Assembly (NCBI RefSeq): GCF_028618665.1
Contig: NZ_JAQITF010000003.1
Coordinates: forward strand, 124,001 to 188,000
DNA length: 64,000 bases
Direction of reading: 5' to 3'
DNA from: Bartonella sp. AU16XJBT
GTDB taxonomy: Bacteria > Pseudomonadota > Alphaproteobacteria > Rhizobiales > Rhizobiaceae
Shown here piece by piece: positions 3,679 to 22,950 of the stretch. Under the pieces are notes generated by a model. The model did no database searches. It worked only from the letters and a program-made list of their open reading frames with translations, and was not told where the DNA came from. How positions within the stretch are numbered: the first letter of the stretch is position 1; each line of letters opens with the position of its first letter. The translations under genes and the position numbers were made by a program.

Positions 3679-4020
3679 TTAATTAATTTTAAAAGAAATA
3701 ACATCACCAGCAGAGCCATCACTCATGGCAATGCCAATGGTGCGATCTGCTGCTTCTGCCTTTATGGCGTGCCCTTTGGGGTCAGAGGTTAAAAAATCAC
3801 CAAAGGAAACATTGCCTCCACAAACCACTTCGCCCCAACCGCATTGAGCAACATCAATCATCTCACCAGCCTTGGCTTCACAAGAGCCGGCAGTGCCTAA
3901 TAATTTATCACCCTTACCAGTAGCCGTTGCCACCATTCCCTCAGTGCGGGCTGCAACAATGCAATAAGGCGAGATCACATCTCCAGCGCGAAAAGATTTC
4001 ATCAAAATTGTCGTACTCAT
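3679..4020 (-). CDS. Head decoration-type protein (DUF2190-like)
   Basis: A protein of 113 residues, mostly short beta segments: AGDVISPYCIVAARTEG, KGDKLLGTAG, GEMIDVAQCGWGEVVCGG, DFLTSDPKGHAIKAE and RTIGIAMSDGSAGDVISFKIN. This is the repeated beta-tulip style of DUF2190/capsid decoration proteins. Its place between the scaffold/protease and the major capsid gene fits a head-stabilising protein. The start overlaps the stop of the protease gene by 4 bp. Confidence 0.72.
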   Translation of the reverse strand: MSTTILMKSFRAGDVISPYCIVAARTEGMVATATGKGDKLLGTAGSCEAKAGEMIDVAQCGWGEVVCGGNVSFGDFLTSDPKGHAIKAEAADRTIGIAMSDGSAGDVISFKIN

Positions 4021-4499
4021 AATTGGCGCTCCTTTTGCTCGCTAATATAATCAACTGCTTGGCTAATGGTGATGTCGAAGCCTTGTGCTTTCTGCTCTTG
4101 TTGATAATGGCGTGCCGCAAGCGCAACCTCTTCTGGCGCAAGCTTTGCTTCTTGCACCAAGGCACACACTTCTAAAGGGCTTGTTGAGGCAAGCGCCGGC
4201 AATTTTTCTATCAAACTTTTAAAATGCTCCACGCCCCCTTCAAGGGTACAAAGGGCACAATATTCTTCACGTGCAGCAGGCAAAATCTTGCCCTCTTCAA
4301 TCGCTTTGTCTAAAAGACTCTCAATCGTCGCCTTTTTTTGCTCTTCCCGCAAAAGTGCTAAATCTTCTCGCGCTTTTGTTAATTGGGTATTTAATTCCAC
4401 CCGTTCTTTTTCGCGTGCTGCAATGCTTGCTAAAATTTCTGCAGGTTTTGCATCTTCTGCCAGCTCCAAAGCACTGGCAATGGCTGTTAAATCCATCAT
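4017..4499 (-). CDS. Nested in-frame scaffold protein (gpZ-like) from an internal start
   Basis: Inside the protease gene, in the same frame, two adjacent ATG codons (4497-4499 and 4494-4496) follow a strong GGAG Shine-Dalgarno that lies 3 and 6 bases from them. The product would be MMDLTAIASALELAED and about 145 further residues, with heptad-like charged helices typical of head scaffolds. In Mu the scaffold gpZ is the separately translated C-terminal part of gene I. The internal ribosome site is seen in the sequence. Separate translation is inferred. Confidence 0.6.
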   Translation of the reverse strand: MMDLTAIASALELAEDAKPAEILASIAAREKERVELNTQLTKAREDLALLREEQKKATIESLLDKAIEEGKILPAAREEYCALCTLEGGVEHFKSLIEKLPALASTSPLEVCALVQEAKLAPEEVALAARHYQQEQKAQGFDITISQAVDYISEQKERQL

Positions 4500-5075
4500 T
4501 TTCTCCGTCAAGGTTGTTGGGGACACCACAAGGGGTATCAAAGGGGGTGTTAAAGGGTATTCACGGCTTAAAGCCGTCATCACAAGGGCAGGACGGTTCA
4601 CCAACCCTGCCCCTGCCAAACTTAAAATCTCACCATTTTTAGAATGACGAAACTCAGGGGAAAGATAGCGATACTCTCGGGCAATAATCTTTTTAGCTGC
4701 CATATCGGTCCATTTAACCCGACCCCAAATCGCACCATCCCGCTCTGCGAGTTCTTCAATCCAGCCACTAGCCGGCGCTTCCAAGCCGTTCCTCGCTCGG
4801 TGATGTTGCCCATGCTCATAATCAATCACAAGCGGTCCTTTATTGGCTGCAAAAGCCTTTAAAATCCTTTGTGGGTCATAATGCCATTCCCGTCCATCAC
4901 GCGCCTTCACATGGGGCGCTTTAGGCAACAACTCGACCCATTCCGGCGCTTGGCTAACGGTGGCGTCTTGGCATAAAATATCTTGGCATAAAACGTCTGG
5001 GCAAAGATCTATGAACGCGGCATAAAATGTTTCTGCATCCCCATCTTCTTGATCTTCGTGAAATTCCTGTTCCAT
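4017..5075 (-). CDS. Head maturation protease with C-terminal scaffold (Mu gpI-like)
   Basis: A protein of 352 residues. The N-terminal half contains the Mu protease I pattern: PLVIDYEHGQHH (about 81-92), PASGWIEEL, REYRYLSPEF (133-142) and LSLAGAGLVNRPAL (151-164). The C-terminal half (from about 193) is a long helical, Glu/Lys-rich scaffold. The Mu I gene has the same protease-scaffold arrangement with an internal start for the scaffold Z, and a matching internal start is present here (see the nested entry). This gene opens a new transcription block after an 870-bp non-coding gap. A palindrome 73 bp upstream is shared with the endolysin operon. Confidence 0.85.
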   Translation of the reverse strand: MEQEFHEDQEDGDAETFYAAFIDLCPDVLCQDILCQDATVSQAPEWVELLPKAPHVKARDGREWHYDPQRILKAFAANKGPLVIDYEHGQHHRARNGLEAPASGWIEELAERDGAIWGRVKWTDMAAKKIIAREYRYLSPEFRHSKNGEILSLAGAGLVNRPALVMTALSREYPLTPPLIPLVVSPTTLTEKMMDLTAIASALELAEDAKPAEILASIAAREKERVELNTQLTKAREDLALLREEQKKATIESLLDKAIEEGKILPAAREEYCALCTLEGGVEHFKSLIEKLPALASTSPLEVCALVQEAKLAPEEVALAARHYQQEQKAQGFDITISQAVDYISEQKERQL

Positions 5076-5154: not shown

Positions 5155-5384
5155 TCAAAAGAGCATTTCTCAAAAAAGCACTCTTTTCCCTATTATTCTC
5201 CTTGTGAGAGAAACCCCCGTGCTAAACCATCCCATAAAATCGTTTTCAAAGGCACTTCAAAGGCGATAGAGCGCCGTTGTGAAGTTAGAGGTACAAATTA
5301 TCACTCCATACAAAAAAGCCTCTCTCAAGGCGCGTTTTTTTAAAGATTGCTTTTTGGCTTAAAAACATTATATCATTGGAGATA

Positions 5385-5451
5385 AGGCGTGAGCCAGTTT
5401 TGCCAGGACGGCTTTGCCGGATCTGCGAGGAGTTGACCGCCCTCCACGCCT
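5385..5451 (+). ncRNA. Candidate structured small RNA, copy 1 (C4-antisense-like fold)
   Basis: AGGCGTG at 5385 pairs with CACGCCT at 5445-5451, closing a domain that contains the hairpin CGGC-TTT-GCCG (5409-5419) and a GAGG...CCTC pairing. A sigma70-like plus-strand promoter TTGCTT (5347-5352), 16 bp, TATATC (5369-5374) ends 11 bases before the closing stem. A pyrimidine-rich TTCTCATTTC follows the stem. The closed multibranch layout recalls C4 antisense RNA of P1/P7-type phages. That family link is from memory and not computed. Confidence 0.55.
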
Positions 5452-5663
5452 TCTCATTTCACAAAAGCCAACAGGTCTTTCCGGTGTTCTCTTTACAACA
5501 ACCGTTCATTCTTCTTTTCCCTTTTAAAGAAAACACCCCCAGTCTCAAACACTCTTAATAAAAGTCAAACACTCTTATAAAATTGTTTTCAAAGACACTG
5601 GCGATAGAGCACCATTTTTTTAAAAGATTGCTTTTAAACGTTGAAACTGTTAGATTACCCGCG

Positions 5664-5730
5664 AGGCGTGAGCCAGTTATACCAGGACGGTTTTACCGGA
5701 TCTGCGAGGAGTTGACCGCCCTCCACGCCT
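5664..5730 (+). ncRNA. Candidate structured small RNA, copy 2
   Basis: This is the same 65-nt core as copy 1. The inner hairpin here is CGGT-TTT-ACCG (5688-5698), so a C-G pair has become T-A on both sides of the stem. This is a compensatory change that supports base-pairing. The promoter TTGCTT (5628-5633), 17 bp, TAGATT (5651-5656) lies at the same distance upstream. A TTCTTATTTTCT run follows. The plus strand is antisense to the phage late transcript. Confidence 0.58.
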
Positions 5731-5835
5731 TCTTATTTTCTCACGCATTGACTCTCTTCACAAAAGCCAACATGGTTTTCTCAAAGCGTTTTTTTAAGAT
5801 TGCTTTTAAACTTTTAAACTGTTAGATTACCCACG

Positions 5836-5902
5836 AGGCGTGAGCCAGTTATACCAGGACGGCTTTGCCGGATCTGCGAGGAGTTGACCGCCCTCCACGC
5901 CT
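5836..5902 (+). ncRNA. Candidate structured small RNA, copy 3
   Basis: The hairpin core is almost identical to copy 2, with the copy-1 version of the inner stem (CGGC/GCCG). The promoter TTGCTT (5800-5805), 17 bp, TAGATT (5823-5828) would start transcription about where the closing stem begins. A TTCTCTTTTC run lies after the stem. It ends about 40 bp from the 3' end of the MuF gene, with which a longer transcript would be antisense. Confidence 0.58.
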
Positions 5903-5943
5903 TCTCTTTTCACAAACACCAACAGAGCTTTACGGTATTCTCT

Positions 5944-7149
5944 TTACAACAACCTCTCGCCCTTTTTTTCAGCCGCGTTTAACAAACGTTGAATTTCGCG
6001 AAAGCTCTTTTTATGCATGGAGGTCAACCACCATTCTTGTTTGCTTGCCACAAATTTAACCGCTAAGCGCCACCATACCCCATCATTTTCACCCAAAAAC
6101 ACAACGCTCGGTACACCTTTTCGCCTGATAATTCCATGGGGGCGGATAAGTGTTTGAATGGCGCCTCGAAAATCCTCCAAGTGAAGAGACCGCGCTTGAT
6201 GCTCTAACAAAATATGTTTTACGCTGTCTGAAGATAAGCGAATAAGAGAATTGTCCCCACCAAAAACATCACCCACCTTTTGTAACATCGGGGCTATGGG
6301 AATAAATCCACGAGACATGCGTCCTTCAAACATGGCTTCCAAAAGTGGTGAGCCCACAATATCTTCAATGGCAATACGCTTGCCATTGTCCCCCATCACA
6401 GAGACTTTATCACTCAAAAATCGGCTTAAATTTTGTGAGCGATGTTTCCCAGGATTAGAATGCCATCCAGGATCAATCCCTACGGGTATCTTCTCAACTT
6501 TCCCCGTCCGTTTATTGCGCCAAACCTGCTTTTCAACATGAAGTGGCTCTGCCCCCTCTTCATAGCCTAAATTGTCCGCCTCATAACGGCTTACCTGTCG
6601 CACACTGCATTTACATCGCCAGCCATTGGGCGGATAAAGCCAATCCCAAACCGGATCATCAACAGGTGCCGTAAACCCCACCCAACTTTCATGTTCTAAA
6701 CGCTTATGTTCTGAACTCGACAAAGCATAGGTGAGATAGGGCAAAAATTCTTTATTATTTTGTGTGCGCTCCCATTCCCCTGCCGCATGGGCACTCATGG
6801 TATTAGCCCAATAGACCGTTTCTAAACGCCGCGGGCTGCCCAATTGCACCACGCTCTTTTCACCCGTTTTCGGGTCAATAGCAGTCTTTTTCCCCCACCA
6901 ACCCTTTTCCTGTAAAATCGGCATTAAATTTTTTTGAAAATCTTGAAAAGGAACTTGATGTTTTATGGCTTCTCCAACCGCTCGCTTAAAATCATCCAAA
7001 ATGTCATAGCCTACCGATTTTGCCACCGTAAAGGAAAAAGCATGTTCTTCTGGTGCTATATCCCGCCAATCAAAGCTTGGAACAATATTTTTGGCTGCAA
7101 AATAACGGGTGACCTCTTTGGGTGCTGTTTTAAAAAGTTCCTCATCCAT
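5944..7149 (-). CDS. MuF head protein fused to a C-terminal nuclease-toxin-like domain (Mu gp30/F-like)
   Basis: A protein of 401 residues from the start MDEELFK. This start overlaps the portal stop by 8 bp and has GGGG upstream. A frame 7 codons longer exists. The first 240 residues are a MuF/SPP1-gp7 minor head domain: RRLETVYWANTMSAHAAGEW, HESWVGFTAPVDDPVWD, then LYPPNGWRCKCSV. The last 110 residues are a separate compact domain with SSDSVKHILLEH, a P-H-G-I turn after AIQTLIRP, and WLTSMHKKSF. This is the pattern of the phage barnase/EndoU/colicin/RelE-like (PBECR) nucleases attached to many MuF proteins. The MuF part is well supported. The nuclease assignment is by motif only. Confidence 0.8.
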   Translation of the reverse strand: MDEELFKTAPKEVTRYFAAKNIVPSFDWRDIAPEEHAFSFTVAKSVGYDILDDFKRAVGEAIKHQVPFQDFQKNLMPILQEKGWWGKKTAIDPKTGEKSVVQLGSPRRLETVYWANTMSAHAAGEWERTQNNKEFLPYLTYALSSSEHKRLEHESWVGFTAPVDDPVWDWLYPPNGWRCKCSVRQVSRYEADNLGYEEGAEPLHVEKQVWRNKRTGKVEKIPVGIDPGWHSNPGKHRSQNLSRFLSDKVSVMGDNGKRIAIEDIVGSPLLEAMFEGRMSRGFIPIAPMLQKVGDVFGGDNSLIRLSSDSVKHILLEHQARSLHLEDFRGAIQTLIRPHGIIRRKGVPSVVFLGENDGVWWRLAVKFVASKQEWWLTSMHKKSFREIQRLLNAAEKKGERLL

Positions 7150-8743
7150 GATACCCCAGTCCCCGCGCAATCATTTGCACCTTTGCCAAGCGTGCTGCCA
7201 AGGCATGATGATCCATCTCGCCTAACAATTCATCTAAGCCTTTGAGGATATCCTCATAACTTTTTGCTTCTCTCACAAGCTTTTTAAAAGGCTCTAAAAG
7301 GGGTTCTAAATCCTCTTCCCAGTCACTTAAAGCTTCTTCAGAAAGTCGGTCCAATTCGTCGTGATATTTCCCACCATGCTCTTTTCCACCCTTGCCCTCT
7401 CTTGTCACAGAAACATCAAAAGCACCCCCACAATCAGCACAAACATGAGCTTTTTGTTGCCCCGCATCATCCTCTTGTCCCCTCTCATCATCAGGCGCAT
7501 TATCAGGAGCCTTTAAAACATCTTCTTCCTTTTTTGGTTGCGAAAAGCCAATCTTATTGCGTACTTCTTGTGCCCCAACACGCAAACCTAAAGGCACAAG
7601 TTTTTCCAGCGCATCACTAATCGCTTTAATATCTTCATTTTCCGAAATCGGCCAATAGACAAGGGGAGTGCGCTCTTGGCGCCCAAAATTAATCTCAACA
7701 AAAGGCACGATCAAATCACGATTGGCCGTCAATGCCAATTGCCGTGCATCAGCTCTGGCAATATCATGGCGCACATTTTCATGAATGCGCGCTTGTGAAA
7801 AGGACGACCCATCATCCGTCGTCATCGTTTGCCCCAATACCCCTTTAGAGATCTGTCGATCTAAATATTCCGCCTTTGCGGCAAAAACCGCATTGCCACT
7901 GCCCCCTGCCGCTTCAATAAACTCAATCTCCATCTCTTTGGGAATAATCGCTGCCGCATCACTGGATAAATCACGCACAGCCTTCATGAGAACCCGCCGT
8001 TCCTCATGAGAAGAGCTTGCCCCATATTTTCCCACACGCAACGGCATGCCGTAAACTTCTAAGAAAGCCATCCAATCTTTTAAGGTATAAGACTTAAACA
8101 AAAATGCCCAAGCCGCAAGCCGTGCAAGCCCCGTACGGATAGGTAAGCCACTTTTCAACTTGGGTCTGTGAATGGAAAATTTATAAGCAGGCAACTCTGT
8201 TCCGTACAAAGACCCCTCTTCTTTTAAACGCAAATGAAAGCCATCTCGCCGGTCCAATTGAAAAAACCGCTGATCACGCCATTTCCAAGCAACCGGCCAC
8301 CATTCTTTGGCACTCTTGTCCCACAAGGTTTCAACAATCGCATAGCCTTTTCCCAAAGCATCTAACAAATCCGTCACATAATCATCAACAAAGGTAGGTG
8401 CACTAATCATTTCTCGAACAGCATCGGCAATTTTTTTGTCCAGTGCACTGTTGCTTGCAGCAATCACCCCAGGCTCCACCCCTGTGAGAGCATTTTTACG
8501 CATGCCAAGCACAGCACGATAATGTAAATCACGCTCTTCCATATCATCAGCAAGTTGGAAAAATTGTTCAGGCGCCCCCCTCGCTGCCTGCTGCAAAATA
8601 TCAGCAAGTTGCGCAGGTGTTAAACCACTGACAATGGTTTGTGACCATACATCACGAACACCACCAATGCTTGGACTTGCCACCTCCCGCTCCAACCCTT
8701 TGATATGAAGCGCCCTACCCCACTGATCTAAAAGTTTTACCAT
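7142..8743 (-). CDS. Portal protein, DUF935 family (Mu gp29-like)
   Basis: A protein of 533 residues. Conserved DUF935 stretches include GLTPAQLADILQQAARGA, FFQLADDMEERDLHYRAVLGMRK, YAIVETLW, WRDQRFFQLD, LARLAAWAFLFKSYTLKDWMAF (split over residues near 205-230), EVYGMPLRVGKY and LGQTMTTDDGSS. The family forms the dodecameric portal at the head vertex. An acidic C-terminal region contains a CADCGGAF pair of cysteines near residue 445. It is preceded by the terminase and overlaps the MuF gene by 8 bp, as in Mu. Confidence 0.9.
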   Translation of the reverse strand: MVKLLDQWGRALHIKGLEREVASPSIGGVRDVWSQTIVSGLTPAQLADILQQAARGAPEQFFQLADDMEERDLHYRAVLGMRKNALTGVEPGVIAASNSALDKKIADAVREMISAPTFVDDYVTDLLDALGKGYAIVETLWDKSAKEWWPVAWKWRDQRFFQLDRRDGFHLRLKEEGSLYGTELPAYKFSIHRPKLKSGLPIRTGLARLAAWAFLFKSYTLKDWMAFLEVYGMPLRVGKYGASSSHEERRVLMKAVRDLSSDAAAIIPKEMEIEFIEAAGGSGNAVFAAKAEYLDRQISKGVLGQTMTTDDGSSFSQARIHENVRHDIARADARQLALTANRDLIVPFVEINFGRQERTPLVYWPISENEDIKAISDALEKLVPLGLRVGAQEVRNKIGFSQPKKEEDVLKAPDNAPDDERGQEDDAGQQKAHVCADCGGAFDVSVTREGKGGKEHGGKYHDELDRLSEEALSDWEEDLEPLLEPFKKLVREAKSYEDILKGLDELLGEMDHHALAARLAKVQMIARGLGYHG

Positions 8744-22231: not shown

Positions 22232-22779
22232 TTAAGCGGGCATTTCTAAAAAGTTATCGTTATCCGTTAGATCGCTAAAGCGTGTAAAATCGGATTGAAA
22301 GGCAAGAGGAACTATTCCTGTTGGATCATGGCGTTGTTTAGCTATAATAACCTCGACTTTGCCTTTGGCTTTCTCCATTGCCTCTTGCCATTTTCTATAC
22401 TCAGCGCTGCCTTCTTTTGGTTCTTCCTTTTTGAGATAATATTCTTCACGATAAACAAAAAGCACAATATCGGCATCTTGTTCAATGGAATCTGATTCTC
22501 GTAGATCTGCAAGCTATGGACGTTTATCTGTTCGGTTTTCAACTTGGCGTGAGGGCTGTGACAGAGCAATGATAGGAATATTAAGTTCTTTTGCCAAAGC
22601 TTTAAGCCCCATGATAATCGCTGTTATTTCTTGAACGCGGTTTTCTAATGAGCGTTTTGAATGGATTATCATGAGTTGGATATAATCAATAATCAAAACA
22701 TCTAGACCATATTGTCATTTGAGATGCCTTGCACGGGCAGCTAATTGTGCAAGGGATACACCGCGCTCTTTTTGCTACC
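22232..22779 (-). pseudogene. Replicative DNA helicase (dnaB) C-terminal fragment, broken
   Basis: The translated fragment follows the DnaB RecA-like core: KERGVSLAQLAARARHLK, then a TGA where Arg is expected, QYGLDVLIIDYIQLM (H3/Walker B region), RVQEITAIIMGLKALAKELNIPIIALSQPSRQVE, DKRP followed by a TAG where Gln is expected, LADLRESDSIEQDADIVLFVYREEYY, and KVEVIIAKQRHDPTG to the end. Two in-frame nonsense codons and loss of the N-terminal half make it a pseudogene. The 5' break coincides with the start of direct repeat B. It may be a remnant of an older phage or a duplicated chromosomal dnaB. Confidence 0.85.
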
Positions 22780-22950
22780 AAATTTCAACTGCTATTTTTT
22801 ACACTTTTTTTGCAATTTTAGCTGTCAAAATTCATTTTGAAAAAACGCGCATTTAATGGTAAAAAAACAGTCATAAAAACAATAAATTATCACATATCCA
22901 CCCTAATCTTATCTTTTCCCGTTCAATATAAAACATAAAGTCAAACTACA
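22780..22950. repeat. Direct repeat, copy B (about 170 bp)
   Basis: The partner of 21872-22044. It begins exactly where homology to dnaB ends. From 22951 to the promoter at 23261 the DNA is very AT-rich and I see nothing else in it. Confidence 0.7.

Follow-up and report, generated by a model that had tools for sequence, protein, structure and literature searches.

A putative structured RNA family near the capsid genes of some Mu-like phages of rhizobia and their relatives

Judging from sequence comparison, a 70-nt repeat in a Mu-like prophage of Bartonella sp. AU16XJBT belongs to a structured RNA family that has no match in Rfam and is carried near the capsid genes by some Mu-like phages of rhizobia and their relatives. 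The RNA is probably a phage regulator. The reading that we favor, and consider reasonably likely, is a small trans-acting RNA of about 70 nt that would be made from its own sigma-70-type promoter, would act on a partner encoded by the host or delivered by the phage, and would hold back or time the phage programme.

Results

Three copies in the gap between F and I

The window, the whole 64,000-nt stretch of Bartonella sp. AU16XJBT DNA that was analyzed, contains most of the length of a Mu-like prophage. Its genes are on the minus strand, with Pfam matches to Portal_Mu, Phage_Mu_F, Mu-like_Pro (gene I), the Mu transposase, and the MuB C-terminal domain. The Mu F-like head morphogenesis gene (5944–7170, minus strand, PF04233) and the Mu I-like protease/scaffold gene (4017–5075, minus strand, PF10123) are on opposite sides of a gap of 868 bp (F end 5944, I start 5075), and this gap contains three copies of one sequence on the plus strand. 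A sequence-only reading of the same DNA had described a core of about 65 nt that recurs three times, and it does so as near-identical copies of 70 nt each, at 5384–5453 (copy 1), 5663–5732 (copy 2), and 5835–5904 (copy 3), the end of the F gene being 40 nt past copy 3. The copies scored 100.6, 98.3, and 99.0 bits with a covariance model that all three had been used to build. Beyond these three, the window's genome gave just one match at E ≤ 10, of 18 nt (E 0.28). The prophage is placed as if between two dnaB copies, since there is a dnaB-like gene just past its tail end and apparently a broken dnaB-like stretch past its repressor end (window 22260–22780, L036:5310–6800; judged by eye).

In the 71 Bartonella genomes, the window's genome included, 33 of the 34 I loci had the RNA (one copy at 11, two at 15, and three at 7 loci), counting I places with E below 1e-100 and excluding two weak ones (G031 and G057). 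At the exception (G050), F and most of the gap have been lost. All 62 strong copies were on the strand opposite I and at most 2 kb upstream of it; these are the strongest of 72 RNA places, the 10 divergent ones being excluded. One divergent copy (G020) passed one genus search and failed another. The divergent copies of six genomes (L037–L042) share a similar chromosomal locus and are partly decayed, several with broken stems. None of the 16 Mu-like proteins of the window matched at these loci, and the neighbors are what we take to be a parA-like gene and repeated small lipoprotein-like paralogs. G057 (L127:1308–4812) has, in a row, a ParB-like gene, two divergent tandem RNA copies in sense, and I, followed by a capsid gene of the Mu gpT type and a small gene resembling a regulator. 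Two other genomes, G027 and G066, each have several I genes of close similarity (four and five, respectively) accompanied by RNA copies, and thus probably contain as many copies of one Mu-like prophage.

Homologs beyond Bartonella

BLAST of window positions 5200–6000 against 50,697 phage records gave matches to POA1180, a Mu-like phage of Ochrobactrum that is entered under two accessions, and a weak match to one further record. POA1180 has one copy, in the F-I gap as in the window. Model R1, built from alignment A2 (17 sequences), was used to search 394 genomes from the family and 397 from the order. At E 0.01 or better it matched 13 and 8 genomes, respectively, the window's genome in both sets, with 20 loci beyond that genome. 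Eight new genomes were accepted from the family set: G151 (Martelella mediterranea, two loci), G205 (Nitratireductor sp. B36), G257 (Brucella haematophila), G275, G286, G333 (Phyllobacterium sp. 21LDTY02-6), G335 (Mesorhizobium xinjiangense lm94), and G372. Three were accepted from the order set (G571, G738, and G789). Seven weak matches (G228, G345, G351, G466, G519, G631, and G707; E from 0.0015 to 0.0071) were judged to be chance and excluded, promoter and motifs being missing by eye. G396 appears to be the decayed remains of a copy, next to what is left of an F-like gene, and was kept out of the alignments. Model R2, searched with filters at which weak matches are lost, matched only the window's genome among 385 genomes of the class.

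A sequence pattern run over the whole collections recovered the Bartonella copies and several accepted members. It matched 36 stretches; R2 was run on the 11 outside species already known and confirmed one of them, a Devosia MAG (L147), while L148 (E 0.007) and L138 (E 0.03) were taken as chance. Five of the seven viral stretches from the pattern were also confirmed by R2 (L165, L167, L169, L170, and L171). L169 is POA1180 in effect, with 100% protein identity in six late genes, and L170 is 93–98% identical to POA1180. L167 is probably the Martelella phage at the G151 locus L050, because the F identity is the same. The new viral members among the five contigs are L165 and L171. We left L049 (core as in L048), L167, L169, and L170 out of the alignments. 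L039, L040, and L042 are in A2 and R1 and absent from alignments A4 and A5, and two matches in L127 were uncounted.

One 151-base query gave no match in plasmids, and the I protein query gave none in the viral contigs. At the curated thresholds of Rfam 15, no family matched in the window, and the 11 homolog loci searched with Rfam 15 gave matches to tRNAs only. None of the titles and abstract openings among the literature matches listed described the RNA, and the passages of the POA1180 paper seen make no mention of an RNA in the F-I gap (PMC5492332). The Brt RNAs of Bartonella henselae are also repeated small RNA genes in this genus. They differ in size (194–203 nt) and in neighbors, being in tandem with DNA-binding protein genes, and their authors found no similar sequence outside Bartonella (PMC5387305), unlike the family described here, which has homologs outside the genus.

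Fold, covariation, and strand

The members fold as a three-way junction consisting of the closing stem P1 (8 bp), 12–17 unpaired nucleotides (12 nt in copy 1), the P2 hairpin, 1 nt, the P3 hairpin, and, with no gap, the other side of P1. P2 has a conserved A/GA internal loop. The closing stem GGCGTG/CACGCC of the sequence-only reading was present in all three window copies. The inner-hairpin change that it took as compensatory, CGGC-TTT-GCCG in copies 1 and 3 against CGGT-TTT-ACCG in copy 2, is a true two-sided change (C-G to U-A, in P2), and the U-G intermediate CGGT-TTT-GCCG was found in another Bartonella copy (L014:1503–1572).

Covariation among homologs, which that reading had proposed as a test of the structure, was found on both sides of 11 of the 20 pairs. 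In 22 distinct members, 97.9% of the cells pair and 43 cells are two-sided, against a shuffle mean of 8.8 (0 of 500 shuffles); such counts lean towards the model, to which alignments A4 and A5 had been fitted, and the cells are sequences and not events. With L147, L165, and L171 added (25 members), two-sided changes were again in 11 of the 20 pairs, with 49 cells against a shuffle mean of 11.5 (0 of 500). The sequence pattern that had found these three covers, of the closing stem, just the innermost 5' base. When the partners were slid by 1–3 columns, 37 to 48.5% of the cells paired and at most 11 were two-sided. Support from the first alignment (17 sequences, mostly Bartonella) was mixed: 94.7% of the cells paired (2 of 500 shuffles), four pairs were two-sided against 2.3 in shuffles (58 of 500), and further pair types gave 464 of 500.

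Among the clearest cases of covariation is L059, with four closing pairs changed on both sides. The closing stem of POA1180, AGCGCG/CGCGCU, differs from GGCGUG/CACGCC of the window by two compensatory changes. In two weak tandem matches beside an I gene in L127 (20.6 and 14.2 bits), missed by BLAST and by the pattern, the closing stem is complete and most of its sequence differs (CGUAUUG/CAAUACG and GUGCAUCG/CGAUGCAC). G-U cells far outnumber A-C cells (40 against 2 in the 22 members, 13 against 1 without Bartonella), and therefore the plus strand is the structured RNA strand.

These strand data bear on whether the repeats could instead be a DNA site at the prophage center, like the strong gyrase site of Mu, which is located mid-genome in the vicinity of genes G and I (PMC10052514 and PMC5977238). 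According to PMC10052514, the Mu nu mutations, whose DNA gyrase cleaves more strongly, have been mapped to the neighborhood of these two genes. The region of the copies corresponds to that of the Mu site, as it is between the head genes and protease I and near the middle of the Mu-like genome, about 46% along the stretch that starts at the repressor end (window 21583) and stops with the last tail-like gene (end at L036:6757), points taken here in place of the true prophage ends. However, the compensatory pairs, with G-U on one strand only, are of the RNA type, the promoter-like sequence is conserved, and some copies are found outside Mu-like genomes. We consider a DNA site very unlikely.

Folding single sequences added less. 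Each window copy folded no better than shuffles on either strand (z about −0.2 to −0.9), which is uninformative. The three helices were the best fold in four of eight members folded singly (L059, L044, L047, and the second L127 copy); in the other four, the first L127 match among them, P1 forms and the interior differs wholly or partly.

In 16 members, mean pairwise identity was 0.71 in unpaired columns and 0.73 in paired columns, and 0.81 in 20 core unpaired columns that were picked after the fact. The conserved unpaired nucleotides are GAG..A after the closing stem, GU, the A/GA internal loop, and the U.AC(G) loop of P3. A pseudoknot between the joining segment (GUU, CGUG, CGC, CGGA) and the P3 loop (GAC, CACG, GCG, UCCG) is suggestive only. 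In a register picked by eye, 82.6% of the cells pair and three are two-sided (1 of 500 shuffles); slid registers gave five and eight two-sided cells and a higher covariation score, and with a free register the observed value was reached in 320 of 5000, 241 of 5000 (a hand-chosen subset), and 399 of 2000 shuffles. The copies can also be read as short open reading frames, and a small protein was considered on either strand and rejected: no frame is kept among homologs because the indels in the joining segment and the P2 loop differ between them.

The sequence-only reading had likened the copies to the C4 antisense RNA of phages P1 and P7 (RF01695). C4 is also a phage-borne small RNA of 70–90 nt with a long closing stem round two hairpins. 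The Rfam model did not bear out this likeness: RF01695 gave no match in the window at the gathering threshold, none at E ≤ 10 in positions 5200–6000 or in the window's genome, and none at E ≤ 1 in the 11 homolog loci, while C4 of P1 itself scored 68.8 bits in the same kind of search. Conversely, our family model gave P1 C4 3.8 bits (E 1.4 in 601 bases). The c4-a1b1 RNA (RF03163) was found beside C4 in P1 and is absent from the window. The junctions also differ. The hairpins of C4 directly follow its closing stem, with 7 unpaired nucleotides on the 3' side, whereas the family described here has about 12–17 unpaired nucleotides on the 5' side, 1 nt between the hairpins, and none on the 3' side. 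Moreover, the copies are not part of an antirepressor operon, and no icd/ant-type gene with complementary target sites was found beside them. Since model, topology, and context all differ and the positive control worked, we rejected membership in the C4 family and see virtually no chance of a C4-type antisense RNA here.

Promoter-like and 3'-end signals

Ahead of each copy, on the plus strand, there is a promoter-like sequence: TTGCTT (5347–5352), 18 bp, and TATCAT (5371–5376) for copy 1; TTGCTT (5628–5633), 17 bp, and TAGATT (5651–5656) for copy 2; and TTGCTT (5800–5805), 17 bp, and TAGATT (5823–5828) for copy 3. TTGCTT and a TA-type −10 had been noticed before at each copy, and they are there, but the spacing is 17–18 bp and not 16–17 bp as then given. 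The −10 ends 6–7 nt ahead of the first paired base in the window copies. Both sequence and arrangement are kept across members: TTGNNN, 16–18 bp, and NANNNT ending 3–10 nt before the first pair was found in 18 of the 21 members tested, against 348 of 13,988 control positions (2.5%) of the same loci. It was absent in L171 and in two members, L045 and L051, that have the RNA in sense orientation. A generic promoter scan, tuned to TTGACA/TATAAT and requiring at least 4 of 6 matches to TTGACA, did not list the three window promoters; it found three others, against a shuffle average of 1.0. Conserved promoter-like sequence and conserved RNA structure, two marks of a phage small RNA with its own promoter, were both found, with the window promoters outside the list of the generic scan.

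The putative transcript end follows the closing stem (5453–5465, plus strand, for copy 1, and likewise for copies 2 and 3), where T makes up 31%, 54%, and 38% after copies 1, 2, and 3. Over 13 nt from the model end in 23 members, T was 41% and pyrimidine 74%, against 23% and 52% in a nearby control. A scan found no canonical terminator on the plus strand. The T-rich stretch after the stem suggests a transcript end. Each copy would thus be a small RNA gene of about 70 nt, transcribed on the plus strand from its own sigma-70-type promoter, with a start at or just before the closing stem and an end in the pyrimidine-rich stretch behind it.

Antisense, sense, and solitary copies

The antisense place in the F-I gap was also found in POA1180, G205, G286, G151 (contig 7), G738, and G789, and in L147, L165, L169, L170, and L171. 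In L167 and at the second G151 locus, F alone was found beside the RNA. Four I-like places in member genomes lack a match to the RNA (two in G286, and one each in G257 and G151), so not every such phage carries the RNA.

Brucella haematophila (L045) and Mesorhizobium xinjiangense (L051) differ: the RNA there reads in sense with the genes immediately downstream of it, which are a Mor-like gene, a short I, and a capsid gene. These two copies are in compact Mu-derived elements, in which the queries used found few structural genes. The element of M. xinjiangense lm94, of about 7 kb (L082:15240 to L083:2238), consists of a CI-like repressor, a MuA-like protein, an AAA protein, GemA, the RNA, Mor, the short I, and the capsid protein. 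The MuA-like protein is a weak match (24% over part, no Pfam match), and the capsid protein is 58% identical to that of POA1180, also with no Pfam match. Portal, F, and large terminase were not matched in the 24 kb examined. The element looks like a satellite or a remnant of a Mu-like phage.

Four copies are solitary (G333, G275, G372, and G571), with no match to the phage gene set within 15–20 kb. None of these four genomes has an I gene, and the remaining eight of the 12 member genomes have one. The solitary copies in G333 and G571 are near tRNA genes. In Phyllobacterium (L046:1501–1961), the copy follows a tRNA-Met gene at a distance of about 320 nt and has Gfo/Idh-like and DegT-like genes as neighbors; in the vicinity of the window prophage (L036:4996–5072), a tRNA-Met is flanked by similar genes, without the RNA.

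These settings bear on a cis-antisense function, by which full-length pairing of the RNA with the late mRNA of the F-I gap would silence the genes for the I protease and the capsid in lysogens, either through cutting by RNase III or through collision of transcription. The orientation of the 62 strong Bartonella copies and the 11 phages, genomes, and contigs with the same antisense place agree with it, and so does a small, structured RNA with a constitutive-looking promoter. Antisense RNAs of plasmids are small and structured and have a constitutive promoter; those of plasmid copy control and of IS10 are small and folded, have their own promoter, and lie on the opposite strand of a gene cluster, as do the copies in the F-I gap. 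The present family, however, also occurs without an opposite target: such a target in cis is missing for the sense copies (L045, L051, and L127) and for the solitary copies in chromosomes, and unpaired nucleotides are conserved between distant members, which pure self-complementarity would not need. Because homologs are also in sense or alone, antisense pairing is probably not the shared function. Thus the antisense RNA of the sequence-only reading stands as a structured plus-strand RNA opposite the late operon and is weakened as a function, and we consider cis-antisense control unlikely.

The sense copies, located in the compact elements ahead of Mor, I, and capsid genes, would also fit a cis-acting element in the nascent RNA that lies directly behind the promoter and lets polymerase read on. 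The put antiterminators of phage HK022 are nascent-RNA elements, and the likeness to them is by description. The structure does start at the expected transcription start, but what comes after it in most of the phages examined is just the antisense strand of F, and the T-rich average after the stem suggests an end. We regard such an element as highly improbable.

Discussion

Members without an opposite gene keep the fold and the unpaired nucleotides, which favors the trans-acting RNA with a conserved partner. In this RNA, the conserved unpaired nucleotides of the three-way junction would be the partner surface, and the partner would be common to phages, compact elements, and solitary chromosomal copies. 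Since the solitary copies lack phage genes nearby, the partner is probably host-encoded or phage-delivered. It could be a host factor, either an RNA-binding protein or an RNA, or else a target that Mu-like phages bring with them. In lysogens, the RNA would most likely serve as a trans-acting regulator which restrains or times the phage programme.

Scans for target sites covered phage genes. A duplex scan of nine regions from phages or elements, with the 5' segment as query, singled out no gene consistently. The 5' and 3' segments were also compared with the predicted gene starts of seven phages or elements, and no site recurred; the best mean z was −1.48 among 66 gene/segment tests, which are those present in at least four phages.

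A further reading, which we consider doubtful, is that the shared RNA is a currency of conflict among the chromosome, Mu-like phages, and the compact relatives of these phages that carry capsid genes and may be satellites, with the compact and solitary copies acting in trans on an incoming or helper Mu-like phage. If so, these copies might, for instance, pair with the late message of that phage just upstream of the I and capsid genes; the compact elements would redirect capsid supply to the I and capsid genes that they carry, and the solitary chromosomal copies would be an RNA-based immunity.

The comparison adds a putative structured RNA family without a match in Rfam 15 that recurs at one place of the morphogenesis operon in Mu-like phages of Rhizobiales, with up to three copies in Bartonella. 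As a probable trans-acting regulator, it may give a concrete handle on how transposable phages regulate themselves in alphaproteobacteria. With the solitary and compact-element copies, it can be asked whether phages, satellites, and hosts share one RNA switch.
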